Part shown: one piece after another, positions 50,911 to 62,937 of the stretch | How the letters are laid out: every line of letters starts with the position of its first letter | How positions within the stretch are numbered: position 1 is the first letter of the stretch | Made by a program: the position numbers and the translations under genes | Notes under the pieces: model-generated | The model's database searches: none | What the model was told of the DNA's origin: nothing | Seen by the model: the letters and a program-made list of their open reading frames with translations, nothing else | Assembly (NCBI RefSeq): GCF_009192735.1 | Contig: NZ_VTFU01000007.1 | Span: 1 to 64,000, forward strand | DNA length: 64,000 bases | Direction of reading: 5' to 3' | From: Arthrobacter gandavensis | GTDB taxonomy: Bacteria; Actinomycetota; Actinomycetes; Actinomycetales; Micrococcaceae

Positions 50911-53900
50911 CTATCCCGCCCGAGCCTCCGCGAAGCGCGGCGCCATGGACTCCATCTGCTCCATGACGAGCTTGATCGCGGCAGGCTGCTTGTCCGGCGG
51001 ATAGCCGTTCTTGACGAGCAGTCGTTTGATGGAGGAGCGCAGCTTGGCCCGGACATCATCACGCACCGTCCAGTCGGTGCGGACATCGCGCCTCATCACG
51101 GCGACCAGATCACGGGCAATATTCGCGAGAACTCCCTCGCCCTGAACATCCACGGCTGAAGCGTTCTGGGACACGGCATCGTAAAAAGCCAGCTCATCCT
51201 GGTTCAGCTCCGGGTTAAACTGCTTGCCGCGGTTCTTCTCCTGCGAGACTTCCTTGGCCAGTTCCACCAGGGCCGCAATGACCTCCGCCGAGGTCAGCTG
51301 CTGGTTGGTGTACTTGTTCATCAGCTCCGTGATCCGCTCCGAGAACGCACGCTCTCGGATGGCGTTGTTCCGCGTCGTCCGCAGGGCCTCCTCGGAGATG
51401 AGTTTCCGCAGCGCCTCAATGGCGAGCTGCGGGTTCCGCGCCTGCTGCGTCTTCGCCATGAACTCGGGAGTGAGGTCTTCGAGGGAAGGCTTGGGCATGC
51501 CGGCAGCCTCGTAGATGTCCATCACCTCGCCCGAGACTGTTGACGTGGCAATCAGCTGGCCAAGCAGGCGCTGGATGTCCTCCGGTACGGGGATCCCGCG
51601 GGACTGGCGGTCTTCGGCGTCCCACTTCGCCATCCACACCCGGATCTCTTCGTACACCTTGATCTCGGGCAGCAGGTGCGCCAGATGCGCCGACCCTGAA
51701 CAGAGTGCCCAGGCCCGGGCCAGCTGTCCCGAATACCGGCGGTACTGGGAGGCCAGCGTCTCACTGTCCGGGGCGGGTTCGTTCCCCGGCGTCAGCGGGT
51801 CACGGAGGTAGTTGACGGCACCGGTGACAGCGTGGAGGAAAGCCTTGGGCCCGCCTTTGTTCAGTGTGGCCTTCCAGTTGTGCCCGGCCAGCAGTTCGCG
51901 GAGCTTCTCGACCAGTGTTTCGGTGAGCGCAATCGCCTCGTCCAGGTTCTTACCCACCGGCTGATGCGCCGCCCCGTCCTGGCGGCTGTATTCCTTCAGC
52001 GCCGCCGCCAGGTTCTCCGCCAGCGGGGCGTACGCCACCAGCAGGCCGTCTTCCTTTCCCCGGTACGTGCGGTTTACCCGCGCCAGGGTCTGCATCAGCA
52101 GTGCGCCCTTCAGCGGCCGGTCCAGGTACAGGGTGTGCAGGGGCGGGGAGTCGTAGCCCGTGAGCATCATGTCCTTGACGATCACCAGCTCCAGCTCATC
52201 GTCCGCATCCTTGAGCCGCTGCTTGATGGTGGCGTTCTGCGAATCGCGGCGCACATGGTCGGAGACCGGGGGAGTGTCCGAGGCAGTCCCGGAATAGACA
52301 ACCTTGATCTTTCCCCGTTCCAGATCATCGGAATGCCAGTCCGGGCGCAGCTGAACGATCGCCGAATAGAGATTCGCGCAGATCTCCCGGGTGCCGCCCA
52401 CGATCATGGCCTTGCCCGGCGCGTCGATGAACTTCCGCATCTGGTCCCGCCGGTTCTCCCAGTGCGCCACCAGATCTTCGGCCAGCTTGGCAATGCGTTC
52501 CGGCGCGCCGTATACGGCATTGACGACGGCGACGCTCTTCTCGATGCGCGCCCGTTCCGTGTCATCGAGGCCTGCGGTGACTTCATCGGCGGCCTGGTCC
52601 AGGGACTCCTCGCTGACTCCTTCGGCCAGGCCCACCTTGATCAGGCGGGGCTCGAAGTAGACGGGGACGGTGGCGCCGTCGTCCACTGCCCGGTTCAGGT
52701 CATAGATGTCGATGTAGTCGCCGAACACGTCACGGGTGTTGCGGTCCTCGAAGGAAATCGGCGTACCGGTGAACGCGATCAGCGTGGCATGCGGCAGGGC
52801 ATCGCGCAGGTGCCGGGCATACCCGTCCAGGTCGTCATAGTGGCTTCGGTGGGCCTCGTCGACGACGACGATGATGTTGCGCCGGTCAGAGAGCAGCGGG
52901 TGCTCCGCACCGGCATCGCGTTCTGCCTTGCTGCGCCCGAACTTCTGCAGCGTCGTGAAGTAGATGCCACCTGTGGTGCGGCTGCTGAGTTCCTCCCGCA
53001 GCTCGGAGCGTTTGCGGATTTGCCGTGCCGTTTCGGGCAGCAGCTGGCTGCGGACGAAGGTCTCGTAGAGCTGGCCGTCCAGTTCGTTGCGGTCGGTGAT
53101 GACGACGACGGTCGGGTTGCGCAGCTTCGGGTGCCGGATCACCAGGTTGGTGTAGAGCTCCATTTCCATGGATTTGCCTGAGCCCTGGGTATGCCAGACG
53201 ACGCCGGCCTTGCCGTTGCTGCCGACCGCCTGCACGGTGCTTCCCACGGCTTTGGTGACGGCGAAGTACTGGTGCGGTTTAGCAATGCGTTTGATCAGCC
53301 CGGATGCGCCTTCGTCGAACGCGGTGTAGCTGTTCATCAGCTGCAGGAAGCGTTCCTGGTTGTAGAGCCCCAGCAGCGCAGTGTCCAAACCGGTGACGGG
53401 TTCGCCGTCGAGCAGTGCACCGGGAGGCACCGGCTTGCCGTCGTCGTCTACATTCCAGGGCGAGAAGTGGTTCAGGGGGGTGAAAGGGGTGCCGTAGCGG
53501 GCGAACAGGCCGTCGGAGGCGAGCGTGAAGACGCAGAACCGGAACGCCATGGGGAATTCGCGGACGTAGGTGGCCAGCTGGTTATGGGCTGCAGCTACGT
53601 CGGCAGACTTGCTGCCGGCCTTCTTGAGTTCGATGATGCTTACCGGCATGCCGTTGCAGTAGAGCACCAGGTCGAAGCGGCGTTTGTAGTCGCCGTGCTG
53701 GATGGTGACCTGGTTGACGGCGAGCCAGTCGTTGTCGTCGGGGGAGTGGCTGACCAGGCGCAGTGTGGGGCTAACTTCCGTGCCGTCGGCGTCGATGTAG
53801 GTGAGGCGGAAGCCGTTGGTGAGGTAGTCGTGGATGCGCTGGTTTTCGGTGATCGCGTCCACGGATTTGGGGGAGCCGATTTCGGCCAGCGCCTGCTTGA

Positions 53901-54111
53901 GGTACTGGACGGGGACTTCGGGGTTGAACTTTTGCAGGGCGGCCAGCAGCCGGGGCCGGATGAGCAGTTCATCCCAGGAATCGCGCTCGCCTGTGCCGGG
54001 TGCAATGTCGTGTCCGGTTTTCGGACGCCAGCCGAGCGGTTCGGCGAGCATTTCCAATGCGTCACCTTCCCAGTCGGCTTCGGAATACCCCAGCTGCTGT
54101 GCCTGTGCCAT
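50911..54111 (-). CDS. hsdR: type I restriction endonuclease subunit R
   Basis: This 1066-aa HsdR has the N-terminal nuclease motif Asp147 - Glu161-Leu-Lys163 (RRFDLVLY... IIELKKAG), followed by a superfamily 2 helicase core: Walker A QGSGKS at 309-314, VITDRNELDG, and DEAH at 418-421 (VVVDEAHRSHYDD). Later helicase motifs are VYSGTASDTP and TGYDSPPLHTLYLDRP. The C-terminal 250 residues form the helical region that contacts the methylase. It translocates DNA using ATP and cuts unmodified DNA. It follows hsdS with no gap, the last gene of the operon. All core motifs are intact. Confidence 0.95.
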   Translation of the reverse strand: MAQAQQLGYSEADWEGDALEMLAEPLGWRPKTGHDIAPGTGERDSWDELLIRPRLLAALQKFNPEVPVQYLKQALAEIGSPKSVDAITENQRIHDYLTNGFRLTYIDADGTEVSPTLRLVSHSPDDNDWLAVNQVTIQHGDYKRRFDLVLYCNGMPVSIIELKKAGSKSADVAAAHNQLATYVREFPMAFRFCVFTLASDGLFARYGTPFTPLNHFSPWNVDDDGKPVPPGALLDGEPVTGLDTALLGLYNQERFLQLMNSYTAFDEGASGLIKRIAKPHQYFAVTKAVGSTVQAVGSNGKAGVVWHTQGSGKSMEMELYTNLVIRHPKLRNPTVVVITDRNELDGQLYETFVRSQLLPETARQIRKRSELREELSSRTTGGIYFTTLQKFGRSKAERDAGAEHPLLSDRRNIIVVVDEAHRSHYDDLDGYARHLRDALPHATLIAFTGTPISFEDRNTRDVFGDYIDIYDLNRAVDDGATVPVYFEPRLIKVGLAEGVSEESLDQAADEVTAGLDDTERARIEKSVAVVNAVYGAPERIAKLAEDLVAHWENRRDQMRKFIDAPGKAMIVGGTREICANLYSAIVQLRPDWHSDDLERGKIKVVYSGTASDTPPVSDHVRRDSQNATIKQRLKDADDELELVIVKDMMLTGYDSPPLHTLYLDRPLKGALLMQTLARVNRTYRGKEDGLLVAYAPLAENLAAALKEYSRQDGAAHQPVGKNLDEAIALTETLVEKLRELLAGHNWKATLNKGGPKAFLHAVTGAVNYLRDPLTPGNEPAPDSETLASQYRRYSGQLARAWALCSGSAHLAHLLPEIKVYEEIRVWMAKWDAEDRQSRGIPVPEDIQRLLGQLIATSTVSGEVMDIYEAAGMPKPSLEDLTPEFMAKTQQARNPQLAIEALRKLISEEALRTTRNNAIRERAFSERITELMNKYTNQQLTSAEVIAALVELAKEVSQEKNRGKQFNPELNQDELAFYDAVSQNASAVDVQGEGVLANIARDLVAVMRRDVRTDWTVRDDVRAKLRSSIKRLLVKNGYPPDKQPAAIKLVMEQMESMAPRFAEARAG

Positions 54112-55275
54112 TTAGACCATTTCCCCCATGGTGTTTTCAATATCTCGAACTCGCAGTTTCCCGGACATCAGCTGCGGCAGCAGTGCGTCGCGGGTGACGG
54201 CGAGGATATCTGATTCTTGCCCAGCCGCCTGCATCTTTTTGAAGATTTCGACTGAGAGATCATTGAAGCTTTGAAGCCGGTGATCGTCCGGCAGCCGGAT
54301 CTCTTTGTCATTGAAGTAGTTGGTTAGAGCCAGGTTTTTGATACCTGTTGTACCGTTCTCATACTGAAAGAACTCGCCTCTTTCCCAACTATTTCTAAGG
54401 TGTCCATAAACCAAGAAGGCGTTCTTCGAATCCTTCATACGCAAAGCTTTGCAAAAGTTCGAGCTACTAAGGGGCACGTCGAAGCGGGATAGCAATGAGT
54501 CTGTAATCAAGGCAGCCCTACCCGTGGACTGAGTCGGACTACCGCCAGAAGCCTCCATGACTATGTCGCCAACGTGAAGTTCCCGCCGCTTTAGGCTGGT
54601 AGGTTTCAGGAACCTGATAGGCATTTTGCCGCTGCCGGAAGTCTGCAGGGAAGGTAAATCGGCGCCCCGTATGCAGAGCACCTCCTCAGGGTGGGTTGCC
54701 GTCTTCTCGCTGGAGCCCCAATCGCCCGCGAAGATGTCTGCCACTAGAGAGTTCAAACGGCACTGAGTCCCGGACTCGGGTTGGCTAAGTGCTTGCCAAT
54801 GCGCACTAAAGAGTTCATCTAAACCGTGCACGAGCTTGGTGTTGGCAGCGATCTTGTCGTCGAGGGCCCCCAGCACCTCCGCGATCGCCATTCGTTCTTG
54901 TTTCTCTGGTGCACCAAACGGAATCGAACCGAGAACACCCTGGTTAAGGAGTGGTTGGCCAGACCCTGAACTTCTGCCATTCAAGTCGAGTGTCTGAAGT
55001 GCGTAGTACCAGTAGCGGGCGTCGGTACTACCGATAGGAGTGCAGACGATCGCGTTATCCGTAACCCACGCGTCCTCGCCAGAATAGTACAGACTTCCGC
55101 AGTATGAGCCCACGCGCCCAATTACTATGAGGGGTCCGGAAGCGTTGCTCTCCTCTGCATAACCAATCTGCCCGTTGGACCCGTAGACCGGGAACGTTCC
55201 TTGATTTGATCGCGCGGGCGAAGTTTTACCGTTCCTAAAACTGAGGTAGTCCTTCAGGCACGTCTGATCAGTCAC
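54112..55275 (-). CDS. hsdS: type I restriction-modification specificity subunit
   Basis: This 387-aa HsdS has two target-recognition halves. The first runs about residues 1-130 (FRNGKTSPARSNQGTFPVYGSNGQIGYAEES), followed by the conserved helix EKQERMAIAEVLGALDDKIAANTKLVHGLDELF. The second TRD is about 175-340, and the final helix ends with LSVEIFKKMQAAGQE. It dictates the DNA target of the complex. Base composition is clearly lower in GC than in hsdM and hsdR, as expected of fast-evolving or exchanged specificity genes. The start is GTG at 55275, overlapping the hsdM stop (GTGA). Both conserved helices are present, so the gene looks complete. Confidence 0.92.
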   Translation of the reverse strand: MTDQTCLKDYLSFRNGKTSPARSNQGTFPVYGSNGQIGYAEESNASGPLIVIGRVGSYCGSLYYSGEDAWVTDNAIVCTPIGSTDARYWYYALQTLDLNGRSSGSGQPLLNQGVLGSIPFGAPEKQERMAIAEVLGALDDKIAANTKLVHGLDELFSAHWQALSQPESGTQCRLNSLVADIFAGDWGSSEKTATHPEEVLCIRGADLPSLQTSGSGKMPIRFLKPTSLKRRELHVGDIVMEASGGSPTQSTGRAALITDSLLSRFDVPLSSSNFCKALRMKDSKNAFLVYGHLRNSWERGEFFQYENGTTGIKNLALTNYFNDKEIRLPDDHRLQSFNDLSVEIFKKMQAAGQESDILAVTRDALLPQLMSGKLRVRDIENTMGEMV

Positions 55276-56888
55276 GAGATCCGTCCCAACTGTTCGCGCA
55301 CAACCTTGGCCATCCGGTCGGACTCCTCGAACTGCTCGAACAGTTCCTTCTTCAACCGCGCAATCTTCTCTTCGATCGGCTCGCCGTCATCCTCAATCGC
55401 GGCAGCACCCACGTACCGGCCCGGCGTCAGGGCGTAGTCGGCAGCCTTGATCTCCTCCAAAGTGGCTGAATAGCAGAAGCCGGGCTCATCGTCGTACTCG
55501 AGACCGCCCTCAACAGCGGACGACTTGCCGCGCCAGGCGCGGAAAGTGTTGGCGATCTTGTTGATGTCGTCGTCGGACAGGGCGCGCTCGGCACGGTCCA
55601 CCATGTAGCCCAGGTTGCGGGCGTCAATGAACAGCACCTGGCCGGAGCGGTCGATGGAACCGTTAGGGCCTGCAGTCTTGTCCTTGGCGAAGAACCACGT
55701 GCAGACCGGAATGCCGGTGCTGCGGAACAGCTGGGTGGGCAGGGCGATCATGCAGGAGACCAAGTCCGCCTCCACCAGCTGGGCACGGATCTGGCCCTCG
55801 CCGCCGGAGTTGGAGGACATGGAACCATTAGCCATGACCACACCGGCCTTGCCGCCCGGAGCGAGCTTGGAAATGATGTGCTGGATCCAGGCGTAGTTGG
55901 CATTGTTGGCCGGCGGGACACCGTACTTCCAGCGCGGATCAGACTCGGAGCGCGCCCAGTCTTTGATGTTGAACGGCGGGTTGGCCAGCACATAGTCGGC
56001 TTCCATCTCCGGGTGCTGGTCCCGCGCAAAAGTGTCGCCCCAGCGGGAGGCAAGGTTGCCGTTGAGCCCGTGGATGGCCAGGTTCATCTTGGCCATCCGC
56101 CAGGTGCGCTCGTTCAATTCCTGCCCGTACACCGAGATGTCTGAGCCCTCCTTGTTGTGGGCTTCGAGGAACTTCTCGGTCTGCACAAACATGCCGCCGG
56201 AGCCGCAGCACGGGTCGTAAACGCGGCCGTGGTCCGGTTCGAGGACCTCCACCAGCACGCGGACAACGCCGGCGGGAGTGTAGAACTCCCCGCCCCGCTT
56301 GCCTTCGGCGCGGGCGAATTTCTCCAGGAAGTATTCATAGACTTCGCCGAGCAGGTCGCGGGCCTTCTTGGCGCCGTCGCCGGTGAAGCGGGCGGAGTTC
56401 AGCAGATCCAGCAATTCCCCGAGGCGGCGCTGGTCCACGTTGTCCCGGTTGTAAATCGTGGGCAGCGTGGCGGCCAGGGTGTGGTTGGCACCCATGATGA
56501 GCGTCATTGCGTCATCGATCAGTTCGCCGATGGACTTCGCCGGGGCATCTGCGGAGGCCTGCGTTCCCTTGGCATTTTCGGCCAGGTACTGCCAGCGGGC
56601 GCGGGCCGGAACCCAGAAGACGCCGCGGCCGGTGTACTCGTCCACGTCGTCGATGAACTGGGCAATCTGGTCCTCGTTCATGCCGTCCGCTTCCAGCTCG
56701 GCATGAATCTGGGCCCGGCGCTCGTCGAACGCGTCGGAGACGTACTTCAGGAACACCAGTCCCAGGATCACGTCCTTGTACTGGGACGCGTCCATGGATC
56801 CGCGCAGTTTGTCAGCGGCCTTCCAGAGCGTGTCCTTGAGTTCCTTCATGGTTGACGGCGCGGCCGCCACCTTTGTCTTCGGGGGCAC
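55272..56888 (-). CDS. hsdM: type I DNA N6-adenine methyltransferase subunit M
   Basis: This 538-aa HsdM has an N-terminal helical domain (about residues 14-160, LKDTLWKAADKLRGSMDASQYKDVILGLVFLKYVSD). The catalytic domain has SAM motif VYDPCCGSGGMF (223-234) and catalytic NPPF (303-306 in YVLANPPFNIKDW). Both motifs are intact. It methylates adenine at the sequence selected by HsdS. The GTG start at 56888 shares one base with the stop of the preceding gene, so translation is probably coupled. It is the true active methylase of this cluster, in contrast to the methylase-like protein encoded upstream. Confidence 0.95.
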   Translation of the reverse strand: MPPKTKVAAAPSTMKELKDTLWKAADKLRGSMDASQYKDVILGLVFLKYVSDAFDERRAQIHAELEADGMNEDQIAQFIDDVDEYTGRGVFWVPARARWQYLAENAKGTQASADAPAKSIGELIDDAMTLIMGANHTLAATLPTIYNRDNVDQRRLGELLDLLNSARFTGDGAKKARDLLGEVYEYFLEKFARAEGKRGGEFYTPAGVVRVLVEVLEPDHGRVYDPCCGSGGMFVQTEKFLEAHNKEGSDISVYGQELNERTWRMAKMNLAIHGLNGNLASRWGDTFARDQHPEMEADYVLANPPFNIKDWARSESDPRWKYGVPPANNANYAWIQHIISKLAPGGKAGVVMANGSMSSNSGGEGQIRAQLVEADLVSCMIALPTQLFRSTGIPVCTWFFAKDKTAGPNGSIDRSGQVLFIDARNLGYMVDRAERALSDDDINKIANTFRAWRGKSSAVEGGLEYDDEPGFCYSATLEEIKAADYALTPGRYVGAAAIEDDGEPIEEKIARLKKELFEQFEESDRMAKVVREQLGRIS

Positions 56889-58960
56889 TAGCTGTTTCCT
56901 TCCATTGCGGCGTAAGTGTTTGTCACGGTGAGGGTTCCTCCGGCTACGCCGTCCAAGACCAGCGTAGTGAGTTCCTCGAGCTGTTGGAGCCGTTTGCGGG
57001 CGGCGTCACGCTGTTGCGCCAGCTCGGTCAGGACCGCGGTGAGCATCTCCTGCCCCTGGTCCATCCGGCGCACGGGCCACCGCTTCCAGCTGCCGTCCCC
57101 GGAGGGCACGGCATTGATATCCGCTGCCAGGACGTGCGGATGCAGCCCGCCGTCGTTGGTCCGGTCAATGCGTAGGACGCGCGCCGGGTAGAGCACGACG
57201 GCGGATCCCTCCGTATCGACGACGGCGGCAGGCCGGGGGCTGGTACAGAACACCACGTCCCCGGGTTCGGTGACGCGTGCAGCCGGATAGGCATCCGCCA
57301 GCACGAGGAGGTCGATGCTCCGGGATCCCATGGTCAGGGTGCCGAAGACTTCCTCCGGACCGATCACCCTGACGCCCCGGTCCCGGGCCAAATGCTCCGG
57401 ATCCAGCCGGTGTCCCTGCCGGTACATCAGCCGTTTGGAAGCCAGCAGGTCCTGGATCGGTGATGACTTTCCCGCCGTGGCTCCCGTCAGGGGAGCGACA
57501 GCCCGGTGGTCCGACACAGACTCGACCGAATAGCGGTCGAGGAGGTCGGGCGCGGTCGGAGTGTTCAGTTGGGCTAGCAGGTCATCTGCCCGCAGCGCTG
57601 CTTCGGGGCCAGCAAGTTTTTTGCGGCCACTTGAGGCCATTGCTGCCCCGACGAGCGAACCCCGCGAGGCGAGCAGAACACGGGTAAGGGACAGATGTGC
57701 AAAGCGGAACGAGTGAGCCCGGATCTGCGCCAGCGTTCCCATCGCGGCCGAAATATCGCCCACCAGATCCTGCACTACATCCTGTGAAAGATGGGCGCTG
57801 CCCAGATCAGCGACCATAGTCCACTTCGCCGTGTCTTCAACGGAGCGGTGGGCAGGACCCAGTACCCACAGTGCCAGCGCCTGCCGGGATTTGCTGAGGA
57901 GCAATCCCTGGGGCAGTTTCACCACGGCGCGGAGCCTTCCGGAGCGCAGGAGATCGGAGCGGACGTTTTCGGCCTCGCCCCGCAGCGGCTCAGTCAGGGC
58001 GACGGCCGGCGCGATGATGACGGCACGTTGATCTTCACCCATCTGCAGTTGAATGTGCTCCACCGCTGACAGCATCTGCAGCGCGTCCATCACCGGAGTG
58101 CCGGGAGCCGGGTACTGGGCCACGAGGACGGCTGGGCAGGAGAGCGAAAACTCGCCGTTCGCGTCGACATCCAGCTGTCCTCGGCCGACTCCGTGTACAC
58201 AGAGCCGACGGCGTGCCAGCCGGGCGTCGCCGTCGTCGTTCGATCCGGTCATGAGGACAACATCCTCAGCATCGCCCATCCGTCGAGCCACCGCCATCAG
58301 GAGATCGCTGCCGCCGTTGGTAGGGTCGGCGAAGACCGGTGTTTCCGGCAGGCCGGCGGCCAGTTCAGCGGCGATGGCTGCGACCATCTCCGTTGCTTGA
58401 TCGGCCAGCGCGATACCGGCGTGCTGCCGCAGCCCGGCCCGGAACCGGTCGGTCATGAGCTTCTCGAACGCCGCCGCCGGGTGATAGGCGCCGTCCACCA
58501 GCAGATCAGCGTAGCGGGCCAGTGCCCCGAGATCAGGCTTGACGTGTTCGAGTTCGCTGTAGAGGAGTACGTTATCCGGATCCTGATCGTCCGCTGCGTC
58601 CAGCAGATCTGCACTGTCCAAGCCGGTGAGCTGAGTGCCGGAGAGGACCCGGAGGGCGAGTAGCGCGGTGAGTGCATTGAACAGGTCCTCGCCCTGGGCC
58701 GCTACGCCTGTCACTGCGGTGAAGGAGGCGACGTCGTCGAGCGCCTGGCGGTTATTTCCATGACCGGTGTCAACAAGCCACCGGGCCACCTCAAAGGCAT
58801 CGAAGAGGTCCTGTCCCCGAGCGTTTTGCTGGGGCTGGGGAAACGGGTGCGGGGATTCCTTGGTGCGGGATCTCCACATGCTCACGACTGGGCGTCTAAC
58901 CCTGGCGAGAAGCGCTATATCCGGCAAAGAGATCAGCAATTGGTCGTCTGGACGAATCAT
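56888..58960 (-). CDS. methyltransferase-like protein without SAM or catalytic motifs, with HTH-like and specificity-like ends
   Basis: This 690-aa protein is the first gene of the type I RM operon. Residues 11-35 (SLPDIALLARVRRPVVSMWRSR) resemble a helix-turn-helix, with a DLFDAFEVARWLVDTG segment after it. Residues 85-370 follow the plan of an N6-adenine methylase, but the SAM motif is replaced by VFADPTNGGSDL (209-220), against DPxCGSGG in HsdM. The NPPF position reads VLVAQYPAPG (278-287), so the expected catalytic motif is absent. Residues 500-620 resemble a specificity domain, and a coiled coil (636-672) resembles the HsdS spacer helix. An AAAGGAG site precedes the ATG. I infer an accessory or regulatory DNA-binding subunit. 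Its actual role is unknown. Confidence 0.78.
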   Translation of the reverse strand: MIRPDDQLLISLPDIALLARVRRPVVSMWRSRTKESPHPFPQPQQNARGQDLFDAFEVARWLVDTGHGNNRQALDDVASFTAVTGVAAQGEDLFNALTALLALRVLSGTQLTGLDSADLLDAADDQDPDNVLLYSELEHVKPDLGALARYADLLVDGAYHPAAAFEKLMTDRFRAGLRQHAGIALADQATEMVAAIAAELAAGLPETPVFADPTNGGSDLLMAVARRMGDAEDVVLMTGSNDDGDARLARRRLCVHGVGRGQLDVDANGEFSLSCPAVLVAQYPAPGTPVMDALQMLSAVEHIQLQMGEDQRAVIIAPAVALTEPLRGEAENVRSDLLRSGRLRAVVKLPQGLLLSKSRQALALWVLGPAHRSVEDTAKWTMVADLGSAHLSQDVVQDLVGDISAAMGTLAQIRAHSFRFAHLSLTRVLLASRGSLVGAAMASSGRKKLAGPEAALRADDLLAQLNTPTAPDLLDRYSVESVSDHRAVAPLTGATAGKSSPIQDLLASKRLMYRQGHRLDPEHLARDRGVRVIGPEEVFGTLTMGSRSIDLLVLADAYPAARVTEPGDVVFCTSPRPAAVVDTEGSAVVLYPARVLRIDRTNDGGLHPHVLAADINAVPSGDGSWKRWPVRRMDQGQEMLTAVLTELAQQRDAARKRLQQLEELTTLVLDGVAGGTLTVTNTYAAMEGNS

Positions 58961-59220
58961 CGCTGCTCCTTTCCCGGAAATACATATGTGCTCTCGATCT
59001 CATCAGCGTAGTTCATACGGTGATTTTTGGGCGGCTGACCCTGATAAGGGGGGTTATCACGATTCCTTGCCGCAATCTCAACCAAGCCAGCCTAGGTTCA
59101 TAGGGCAGGACAAACGCCAGGCGTTGGTTCTGCTGGAGCGGAAGCCGTTGCACGTTAGTGGGGGGAACGGCTTCCGCTTCGCATCCAACGCTTATTTGTT
59201 GTCCATCAGGAGAAGAAGTC
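58961..59220. other. divergent control region of the RM operon and the envelope-protein operon
   Basis: The 260-bp gap serves leftward transcription of the RM operon and rightward transcription of the operon at 59221. It holds a TAGGTT box (59093-59098), a 13-nt palindrome (59113-59125) and a 12-bp inverted repeat (59138-59177), all on the side of the rightward operon. Confidence 0.55.
59113..59177 (+). promoter_or_regulatory. palindrome and long inverted repeat in an operon leader
   Basis: The sequence AACGCC-A-GGCGTT (59113-59125) is a perfect 6+6 palindrome lying just downstream of the TAGGTT box. GCGGAAGCCGTT (59138-59149) and AACGGCTTCCGC (59166-59177) form a perfect 12-bp inverted repeat with a 16-nt loop, 43 bp before the ATG at 59221. 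The first may be an operator. The second could form an mRNA hairpin in the 5' leader. Confidence 0.6.
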
Positions 59221-61440: not shown

Positions 61441-62937
61441 ATGTACGGGGTCAAGAAGGACAGCACGGAGCACAACCCGGAGGGCGCCAAGGCCTCCGGA
61501 CTCGCCCCTGCCGGCTGTTCCGGGAAGCCCGTTGCGGCAGAAGCTGCGCTGCTGGCCGGGTTGATTGATTCCATTCGGGCGTTGGAGGAACTCAAGGCAG
61601 CCGCCTCGGCAGCCCAGGCCCGGGCAACGGCAATCTTCGACGCAATGACCCGGCGCTCCCAAGCGGCAGCCGGAGTGAAAGCCGACCAGCTCGGCAAAGG
61701 TGTCGGAGCCCAAATCGGGTTCGCCCGCCGCGAGTCCCCGCACCGCGGAACCCGGCTGCTGGGTCTGGCACGGATCCTGACCCGAGAAATGCCCCACACC
61801 CTGCACGCCTTGACCCTCGGAGTGATCAGCGAATGGCGGGCCACCCTGTTGGTCCGGGAGACCGCGTGCCTGTCCCTGACGGACCGGCAGAAGGTTGACG
61901 AAGTCATTGCCGGGAACCTGGATGAGCTCGAGCAGCTCGGGGACCGGGCGCTGATCGCCAAAATCAAGACCCTGTCCTACGCCATGGATCCGCACGCCGT
62001 GGTCAACCGTGCCGCGCATGCCGTCTCGGAGCGGTTTGTGTCCTGCCGTCCAGCACCGGACACCATGACCTATCTGACCGCACTGCTGCCCGTGGGCCAG
62101 GGCGTGGGAGTGTATGCGGCGCTGACCCGGGAAGCGGACCGGCTCCGCGCTGCCGGGGACCCGCGGACCAAGGGCCAGATCATGGCCGACACCCTGGTGG
62201 AACGCACCACCGGACAAGTCAGGGCCGAGGATGTGCGGATCGAGGTGCAGCTGATCATGACGGACCGGGCCCTGCTGGCCGGAACCGCGGAACCGGCCGT
62301 GCTGCCCGGCTACGGGATGCTGCCCGCACAAACGGCACGGGACCTGATCCGCCGGAACTCAACCGCCAGCGGCGCAGCTTCCCGGAACACAGCCTTGGGG
62401 ATGCCCGCGGACCCGGTTAAACCTTCGGGAAAGCCGGCCGACCCGGACAAATCAGCACGCATCTGGTTGCGGCGGCTTTACACGGCACCATCCACCGGAC
62501 AGCTGGTGGGCGTGGATTCCCGTGCCCGGCTGGTGCCCGAGGGCTTGGCCCGGTTCATCGCGGCCAGAGACCAGGTATGCCGGATGCCGTGGTGCGGTGC
62601 TCCGATCCGGCACTTTGACCACATCCGCCCGGTCCGGGCCGGCGGAACCACCAGTGCAGAGAACATCCAGGGCTTATGCGAGGCCTGCAACCAGGCCAAG
62701 GAAGCACCGGGTTGGACCACACGCACCCTTGACGGACCACCAACACCGCCCATTGAGTCTCCGGCTCCGAAGGCTGTTGTTCCGAACGGTCCTCCGGCCA
62801 TCCATACGCCTCCGGTCATCCATACGGTGGAAACACTCACGCCCACCGGACATGTCTACCGATCCACCGCACCGCCCTTGCCCGGATCCAGGCCGGCCCC
62901 TCCGTGTTGTCCGGGCAACAGAGCCAGGTCAGGATAG
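61441..62937 (+). CDS. DUF222 and HNH endonuclease domain protein
   Basis: This 498-aa protein has the DUF222 region (about residues 20-270; LAGLIDSIRALEELKAAASAAQARATAIFDAM and VISEWRATLLVRETACL). An HNH nuclease domain follows near 375-420 (DQVCRMPWCGAPIRHFDHIRPVRAGGTTSAENIQGLCEACNQAK), with the metal-binding Cys pairs and His-Asp-His triad in RHFDHI. The last 75 residues are Pro-rich. Such genes are abundant in actinobacteria. They are proposed to be mobile or selfish nucleases, though no target is known here. Its 3' end overlaps the next gene, on the other strand, by 9 bp. Confidence 0.86.
   Translation: MYGVKKDSTEHNPEGAKASGLAPAGCSGKPVAAEAALLAGLIDSIRALEELKAAASAAQARATAIFDAMTRRSQAAAGVKADQLGKGVGAQIGFARRESPHRGTRLLGLARILTREMPHTLHALTLGVISEWRATLLVRETACLSLTDRQKVDEVIAGNLDELEQLGDRALIAKIKTLSYAMDPHAVVNRAAHAVSERFVSCRPAPDTMTYLTALLPVGQGVGVYAALTREADRLRAAGDPRTKGQIMADTLVERTTGQVRAEDVRIEVQLIMTDRALLAGTAEPAVLPGYGMLPAQTARDLIRRNSTASGAASRNTALGMPADPVKPSGKPADPDKSARIWLRRLYTAPSTGQLVGVDSRARLVPEGLARFIAARDQVCRMPWCGAPIRHFDHIRPVRAGGTTSAENIQGLCEACNQAKEAPGWTTRTLDGPPTPPIESPAPKAVVPNGPPAIHTPPVIHTVETLTPTGHVYRSTAPPLPGSRPAPPCCPGNRARSG

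Follow-up and report, generated by a model that had tools for sequence, protein, structure and literature searches.

A type I restriction-modification (RM) operon in Arthrobacter gandavensis begins with a fourth gene, here called X, whose product is probably devoted to controlling transcription of the X-M-S-R operon, its own gene included. The operon lies within the first 64,000 nt of contig NZ_VTFU01000007.1 (the window), and the proposal is drawn from sequence comparison: X is likely to control the operon because it has kept a DNA-binding head and because its relatives carry a matching palindrome in front of X. The preliminary description of this DNA had placed a gene of 690 amino acids (aa), overlapping hsdM by one base, at the head of the operon, and the open reading frame (ORF) coordinates confirm this. 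X spans 56888-58960 on the minus strand with an ATG start, and its TAG stop has base 56888 in common with the GTG start of hsdM, which is also the commonest type of X/hsdM junction (26 of 44 junctions measured). Downstream on the minus strand, hsdM, hsdS and hsdR follow without gaps, and their products all score above the Pfam cut-offs; HsdM was rightly described as intact, with both DPCCGSGG and NPPF present. The features of the operon and its promoter are as follows.

59043..59058, no strand assigned: palindrome GATAA-N6-TTATC, proposed operator; sole exact copy in the 3.72-Mb genome
59005..59010, minus strand: -10-like element TACGCT, 32 nt after the operator core; placed by conserved spacing
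58965..58970, minus strand: AGGAGC, likely ribosome-binding site of X; from the sequence
56888..58960, minus strand: gene X, winged helix-turn-helix (HTH) plus dead HsdM-like body plus domain resembling a target recognition domain (TRD); proposed operon controller
55272..56888, minus strand: hsdM, intact (DPCCGSGG, NPPF); Pfam and motifs
54112..55275, minus strand: hsdS, 4-nt overlap with the end of hsdM; Pfam
50911..54111, minus strand: hsdR, immediately after hsdS; Pfam

The palindrome GATAA-N6-TTATC recurs in front of X. Across 44 loci, which are the window and 43 loci with full-length X from a contig scan, an exact copy lies 51-112 nt before the X start in 41 and a copy with one mismatch in the other three, and only three further exact copies were found in these loci. 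In an hsdM-based sample, for which the neighbourhoods of 72 loci were read and hsdR and X were checked genome-wide where missing, the 43 loci with X (X+) had an exact site near X in 32 cases, one with a single mismatch in 6 and neither in 5; the sites of G324b and G538, first listed as 'other', were placed at -115 and -103 on re-reading. None of the 29 X-less hsdM loci carried the palindrome near hsdM with up to one mismatch, or an exact copy anywhere in the fetched stretch (Fisher's exact test, 2.4e-15 at up to one mismatch, with kinship ignored and with 16 of the 29 X-less loci belonging to the outgroup). Among 41 other genomes with X, 32 held one exact copy, 8 held two to five and one held none, and a reversed control pattern was present in 3 of the same 41; this count omits L027, L028, L031, L043 and L045, and L027 and L031 carry a one-mismatch site only. 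An exact copy also accompanies the X-M-S-R set of plasmid L199, and none was found on the Streptomyces plasmid L200. These counts suggest that the palindrome is nearly private to the X operon. In Nocardia loci L042 (about 8484) and L044 (about 8486), a second exact palindrome lies about 425 nt further upstream of X.

A -10 element resembling TAGGCT was found 32-35 nt after the palindrome core in 63 of 78 loci. The first spacing window, 28-31 nt after the core, had held 2 of 78, and the peak at 32-35 nt was chosen post hoc, for which reason the control took the fullest 4-nt window anywhere: 500 shuffles gave a mean of 10.8 and a maximum of 18. With this spacing, the palindrome is centred near -53 relative to the predicted transcription start, and no -35 element stands out in the X promoter. 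In the 78 loci, conservation also rises 36-40 nt upstream of the palindrome, with A at -40 and -39 and T at -36, and this spot could be another site or a promoter element.

X also goes together with hsdR. In the hsdM clade that includes the window, 43 loci have both X and hsdR, 11 have neither, none has X only and one (G654) has hsdR only (Fisher's exact test, p = 1e-10, kinship ignored). Two of the 43 are doubtful, as the hsdR match of G612 lies 17 kb beyond hsdM with one in-frame stop and that of G538 lies on another contig; without them 41 remain and the p value is 1.6e-10. The table omits G371 (hsdR off its contig, with a 52% match elsewhere), three loci at contig edges (G412, G023 and G058, of which G023 has no X in the 6 kb upstream of hsdM), G309 (49% identity, long branch, lacking both X and hsdR) and the outgroup loci. 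The HsdM tree separates the X+ loci and their X-less relatives from an outgroup of 16, in which X was not found and hsdR is present in most, with little upstream sequence for G212 and G951. The 11 loci lacking both genes need five changes on this tree, at least four of them forced by well-supported branches. Read as losses, X and hsdR would have been lost jointly every time, in at least four and most simply five lines. This tree excludes G309 and four duplicates and leaves L016 and L045 unlabelled; a version with G309 gave six changes, at least five forced. The duplicates are genomes present in both samples (L002/G545, L024/G509, L035/G687 and L017/G195), which were also dropped from the comparison of sites and residues below and kept in the palindrome counts and the motif survey.

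Traces of the missing genes were seen in some X-less loci: remnants of hsdR in G345 and G291, and, just upstream of hsdM, short stretches of the X C-terminus, clear in G082 (E 8e-7) and weak in G291 (E 9e-4) (L108/L129, L111), both loci being hsdR-less. As 11 related hsdM loci, most of them with hsdS, persist without X, X appears dispensable for methylation, and we rejected the idea that it is a subunit needed for this activity. These data suggest that X matters where restriction is present. G082 and G345 sit at a thyA-dfrA-hsdS-hsdM locus (thyA and dfrA named by eye) like that of Mycobacterium tuberculosis, whose HsdM probably belongs to this clade, judging by its locus. M. tuberculosis HsdM is described as an orphan methylase without a functional HsdR (PMC7591249).

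Rates of change point the same way. Over 28 complete loci, mean pairwise identity was 0.52 for X, 0.85 for M, 0.79 for R and 0.30 for S, and the distances between X proteins followed those of M and R (Mantel r 0.90 and 0.91) and hardly those of S (0.13). The ratio of nonsynonymous to synonymous substitution rates (dN/dS) of X was 0.18-0.28 in seven pairs, which indicates purifying selection, and 37 columns were invariant in 35 sequences. X is thus constrained and part of the M-R core, and it does not track specificity. The preliminary description had also considered that X changes the specificity of HsdS; this is disfavoured, since X does not follow the divergence of HsdS. The possibility that X is a decaying, functionless methyltransferase relic, which its degraded motifs I and IV and the X remnants in loci without hsdR might suggest, is rejected on this selection and conservation, together with the full-length ORFs found across many families.

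The predicted structure of X shows which parts have been retained. The AlphaFold2 model (35 sequences) has a mean pLDDT of 86.0 and a pTM of 0.63, and the parts of the protein are as follows, in order along the chain.

58745..58939, minus strand, residues 8-72: N-terminal MerR/Xis-like winged HTH, recognition helix at residues 23-32; predicted structure, weak fold scores
58436..58690, minus strand, residues 91-175: helical domain where HsdM has its N-terminal domain; predicted structure
57635..58414, minus strand, residues 183-442: methyltransferase-like core; predicted structure
58304..58327, minus strand, residues 212-219: degraded S-adenosylmethionine (SAM) motif I, DPTNGGSD; from the sequence
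58103..58126, minus strand, residues 279-286: motif IV position, now LVAQYPAP, NPPF lost; placed by strand order and conservation
57065..57460, minus strand, residues 501-632: TRD-like domain; whole-chain structure alignments
56942..57046, minus strand, residues 639-673: long C-terminal helix; predicted structure

The HTH-like N-terminus noted earlier is borne out in that residues 1-90, predicted alone, fold as a winged HTH. Its best structural neighbours are the RdfS excisionase, BldC and MerR proteins, and these matches are weak: the Foldseek E value was 0.086, the MerR-like rows had Z scores of about 4-5.5, and no Foldseek match was found at E 0.001. When X is divided into seven parts, conservation is highest in the HTH, with a mean pairwise identity of 0.64. 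The HsdM fold is present in the model, with residues 72-442 matching 3lkd_A (Z 23.2, 341 aligned residues, root mean square deviation (rmsd) 4.5). Sequence profiles see less of it: the Pfam N6_Mtase score of X is 12.9 bits, below the curated cut-off of 20.4, the PADLOC type I methylase model gives 16.4 bits over residues 297-361, no NCBIfam model was matched, and profile-profile comparison (hhalign) with HsdM was weak (E 0.11). Over residues 82-675 the model aligns with 7eew_A ('intact MTase'; Z 20.2, 517 aligned residues) at an rmsd of 23.5, and therefore the domains are placed differently. Alignments to 7eew_A and other TRD-bearing methylases extend into the C-terminal part of X, which we call TRD-like on this sole ground. 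Within this domain the segment TEPGDVVFC is invariant in 35 aligned sequences. The C-terminus had been called HsdS-like; the whole-chain alignments agree with this, and no Pfam Methylase_S match was seen in X. Taken together, these results support the view that X is an M-plus-half-S-like protein in which catalysis was lost and the DNA-binding parts were kept.

The loss of catalysis was followed in 87 X proteins, which include four duplicates. The motif [NDS]PP[FYW] is missing at the motif IV position in all 87, which makes it very unlikely that X methylates DNA. The X protein of G589 has an SPPW a few residues beyond this position. Erosion of motif I is graded: D212 is retained in 69 of the 87 proteins, and two have DPxxGxG by pattern. 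The X proteins of G324b (DPAAGGG) and L046 (DPTGGGG) have a near-intact SAM motif I yet no catalytic motif, and either a decay intermediate or retained SAM binding may account for them; since motif I is close to normal in these two, SAM binding may not have been lost in all X proteins. Of the two motifs reported as decayed in the preliminary description, the NPPF position is thus lost throughout, whereas motif I is only partly eroded in some X proteins. Type IIG enzymes and M-S fusions are active methyltransferases with a TRD; in X the catalytic motif is gone.

The 46 X loci of the contig scan are all actinobacterial by title. In 44 of them hsdM follows X directly, and in one more (L038) its start is visible at the contig end. 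The exception is an orphan X in Mumia quercus (L019:9001-11052) without a neighbouring hsdM, with an exact palindrome at -51 and no hsdR match in the genome. The expectation that homologues precede hsdM therefore holds in 44 of 46 loci, with L038 in addition, and fails once, at this orphan away from RM genes, where the palindrome is kept. Searched with a profile, 394 genomes of the class yielded two tiers, full-length relatives, nearly all before hsdM, and many mainly-HTH matches; as the three best first-look candidates per genome were scored, the tallies are lower bounds, and the bulk of the listed matches are to the HTH alone. Eleven solo HTH-N6_Mtase proteins of actinobacteria (L067-L077) were read. 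Like X, they have the same N-terminal HTH followed by a methyltransferase domain. Unlike X, all 3 that were scanned score above the Pfam cut-off for N6_Mtase, motif I is intact by pattern in 7 of 11 and motif IV in 4 of 11, and none of the 11 has an exact GATAA-N6-TTATC in the fetched stretch; no shared palindrome was seen before these genes. Since these mainly-HTH relatives keep methylase motifs and the N6_Mtase match, X probably descended from an HTH-bearing solo methylase. Five public plasmid records with X were found, in which the gene is annotated 'hypothetical protein'. Contig MT835479.1 (L201), filed as 'UNVERIFIED: Bacteriophage sp.', carries X, M, S and R together with an exact palindrome; the X match covers the C-terminal part, and the contig may be bacterial DNA. 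Beyond the operon, the window holds a 498-aa ORF at 61441-62937 on the plus strand, the C-terminus of which we take to be HNH-like.

Loci with altered sites were used to ask which part of X would read the palindrome. Four of the five X+ loci without the site carry variant sites at the same position, GTTAA-N6-TTAAC in G226, G200 and G709 and GTTTA-N6-TAAAC in G737. The four divergent X proteins from these loci carry S or T at position 22 and A at position 25, where the recognition helix begins, compared with mostly Q, R or K at 22 and V at 25 elsewhere; among 78 other X proteins the variant residue occurs at 22 in one and at 25 in one. On the X tree three site switches are needed, at least two of them forced. 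G180, whose exact palindrome is seen in the hsdM-based sample count, is omitted from this comparison for its misplaced start. Columns 391 and 405 of X also separate the site groups. On these comparisons the HTH is the likelier reader of the palindrome.

Several observations weigh against X as the controller or its HTH as the reader. The fifth locus without the site, G450, keeps one good half of the palindrome only, and the variant sites, which are readable in the raw sequences, were picked by a score favouring G[AT]T[AT]A arms. Among the 10 rows of the clade in which the switches fall, the site types are split by 27 of 584 columns, of which the HTH domain has 6 and the TRD-like part 5, and because such columns also lie outside the HTH, covariation does not single it out. 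The fold matches of the HTH are weak (best Z 5.6). The TRD-like part could be the reader instead, since it is conserved and GATAA-N6-TTATC resembles a symmetric type I bipartite site. In many relatives, such as L014, L025, L159 and L174, about 2.5-9 kb of other sequence separates hsdR from hsdS, and a site with up to two mismatches in front of the separated hsdR is found in only 2 of 18 cases and lacking in the other 16; the former, which speak for X as the controller, are L012, where a second exact palindrome (about 19347) lies 90 nt before hsdR, and L015, with a one-mismatch copy at -101. Among scan loci without a whole local hsdR, the gene was found elsewhere in the genome for L010, L012, L027, L031 and L038, in pieces for L016 and not at all for L019 and L045. 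L016, which has a full-length X, and L045, a metagenome-assembled genome with X, M and S, may be exceptions to the tie between X and hsdR. Finally, G654 (L160) keeps full-length hsdM, hsdS and hsdR with neither X nor palindrome, so the system can exist without X. Its M and R are 80-85% identical to those of the window, and it provides a natural X-less control.

A mechanism consistent with these data can be outlined. A lineage of HTH-bearing N6-adenine methyltransferases, widespread in actinobacteria, would have lost catalysis and given rise to X. As X accumulates, its winged HTH would bind GATAA-N6-TTATC as a dimer, about 53 bp upstream of the predicted transcription start, and so set the level, and possibly the timing, of restriction through transcription of X-M-S-R; the HsdM-like and TRD-like body would probably dimerise and may sense some state of the methylation system. 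We infer that X itself is the binder, that the HTH is the reader, that X dimerises and that the outcome is regulatory. The proposal in the preliminary description of a DNA-binding regulator agrees with the palindrome at the X promoter, and its sign, given there as repression, is close to evenly balanced: by analogy with C-protein circuits we lean slightly to activation, because the palindrome lies upstream of the -10 element and there is no obvious -35. Somewhat more doubtfully, the dead methyltransferase body might sense target DNA that lacks modification, the level of SAM, HsdM/HsdS in free form or DNA mimics made by phages, and switch the winged HTH on or off at the operator. If so, restriction would go up only once methylation is assured or the methylase comes under attack by a phage, and the body would represent a new class of effector domain in bacterial regulators.

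It was also considered whether X acts at the level of the enzyme. X could be a working part of the restriction complex that binds HsdM, HsdS, HsdR or target DNA and licenses or restrains cleavage, with the palindrome serving as a promoter site for X or another factor. Its retention with hsdR and its absence where hsdR was lost, its HsdM-like body and TRD-like part, and its evolution along with M and R would all fit such a role, which we nevertheless consider unlikely: X is missing from G654, which has M, S and R, and from related R-bearing systems outside the clade, and a palindrome that travels with X, the Mumia orphan included, is left unexplained. It is very improbable that X protects the real enzyme as a decoy, by titrating anti-restriction proteins of phages (DNA mimics like Ocr or ArdA). 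In favour of this, a methyltransferase in complex with Ocr (7eew) is among the structures closest to X, X has diverged more rapidly than M (mean identity 0.52 and 0.85, respectively), and a decoy would be useful only with R present; however, X is under purifying selection, its HTH and C-terminal part are conserved, and the palindrome again has no role. The earlier suggestions of a site decoy or a restraint on restriction likewise leave the palindrome at the X promoter unexplained.

The palindrome might instead be read by another regulator, with X as a passenger or effector under it. Covariation does not single out the HTH, and binding of X to the palindrome is a prediction from the comparisons above. 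Against this, 32 of 41 genomes have no exact site other than that at X, the palindrome is absent from the 29 X-less loci, and it accompanies X in different families and on plasmid L199, so that we give another reader little chance. Control of the X-M-S-R operon by X itself remains the reading that we prefer. The X system would then represent an actinobacterial type I clade with a conserved fourth gene and a nearly private operator, lost jointly with HsdR. These losses provide a concrete setting in which HsdM/HsdS pairs drift into orphan epigenetic methylases, and X offers a test case for a dead enzyme as the sensory part of a regulator.

We found no description of the X gene or its operator in the open-licence papers searched, and transcriptional control of type I restriction is said to be little known (PMC12707154). 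In the PacII-type M1M2S system, as in the X system, two different M-like proteins belong to one type I system; there, both M families have the catalytic motif (NPPF, NPPY) and share one S (PMC9613975), whereas X lacks such a motif and carries a TRD-like part of its own. C proteins are HTH regulators likened to lambda cI (PMC5282649, PMC12707154), and in a Mycoplasma type I system HsdC is encoded ahead of the hsdM, S and R genes and binds the direct repeats (GTGTTAN5)2 (PMC5282649). The dedicated autogenous control of an RM operon, and for HsdC also the position of its gene, are as proposed for X, which differs in its 690 aa, its MerR/Xis-like winged HTH and a palindrome of different sequence. 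RptR has a single domain of four helices and a mass of 9 kDa, and it binds TAGCTA repeats that cover the -10 element (PMC12255303). Like X, it is encoded by the first gene of a type I RM island and is conserved together with its site, and it represses its own promoter; X has several domains and 690 aa, and its site differs from TAGCTA. Compared with C proteins and RptR, X is thus neither small nor single-domain, and it shares with them a conserved candidate operator in the RM promoter. Similar in architecture are M.SsoII and M.Ecl18kI, methylases that use their N-terminal region to regulate the RM system to which they belong (PMC3978073, PMC6100179, PMC3695355). In the M.SsoII type, as in X, an N-terminal region, there of about 70 aa, is fused to a methyltransferase and regulates transcription of its own RM genes. 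X has an HTH, by a weak match, on a methyltransferase fold and a candidate site at its own RM promoter, and it lacks the active motifs; M.SsoII is an active type II cytosine-5 enzyme, whereas X is type I-like, without the catalytic motif, and stands beside an intact HsdM. Since M.SsoII and M.Ecl18kI are type II enzymes, and C proteins, HsdC and RptR are small or have other sites, a dead type I-like methylase that controls its RM operon would be, as far as the literature searched shows, a new form of a known kind of RM controller.

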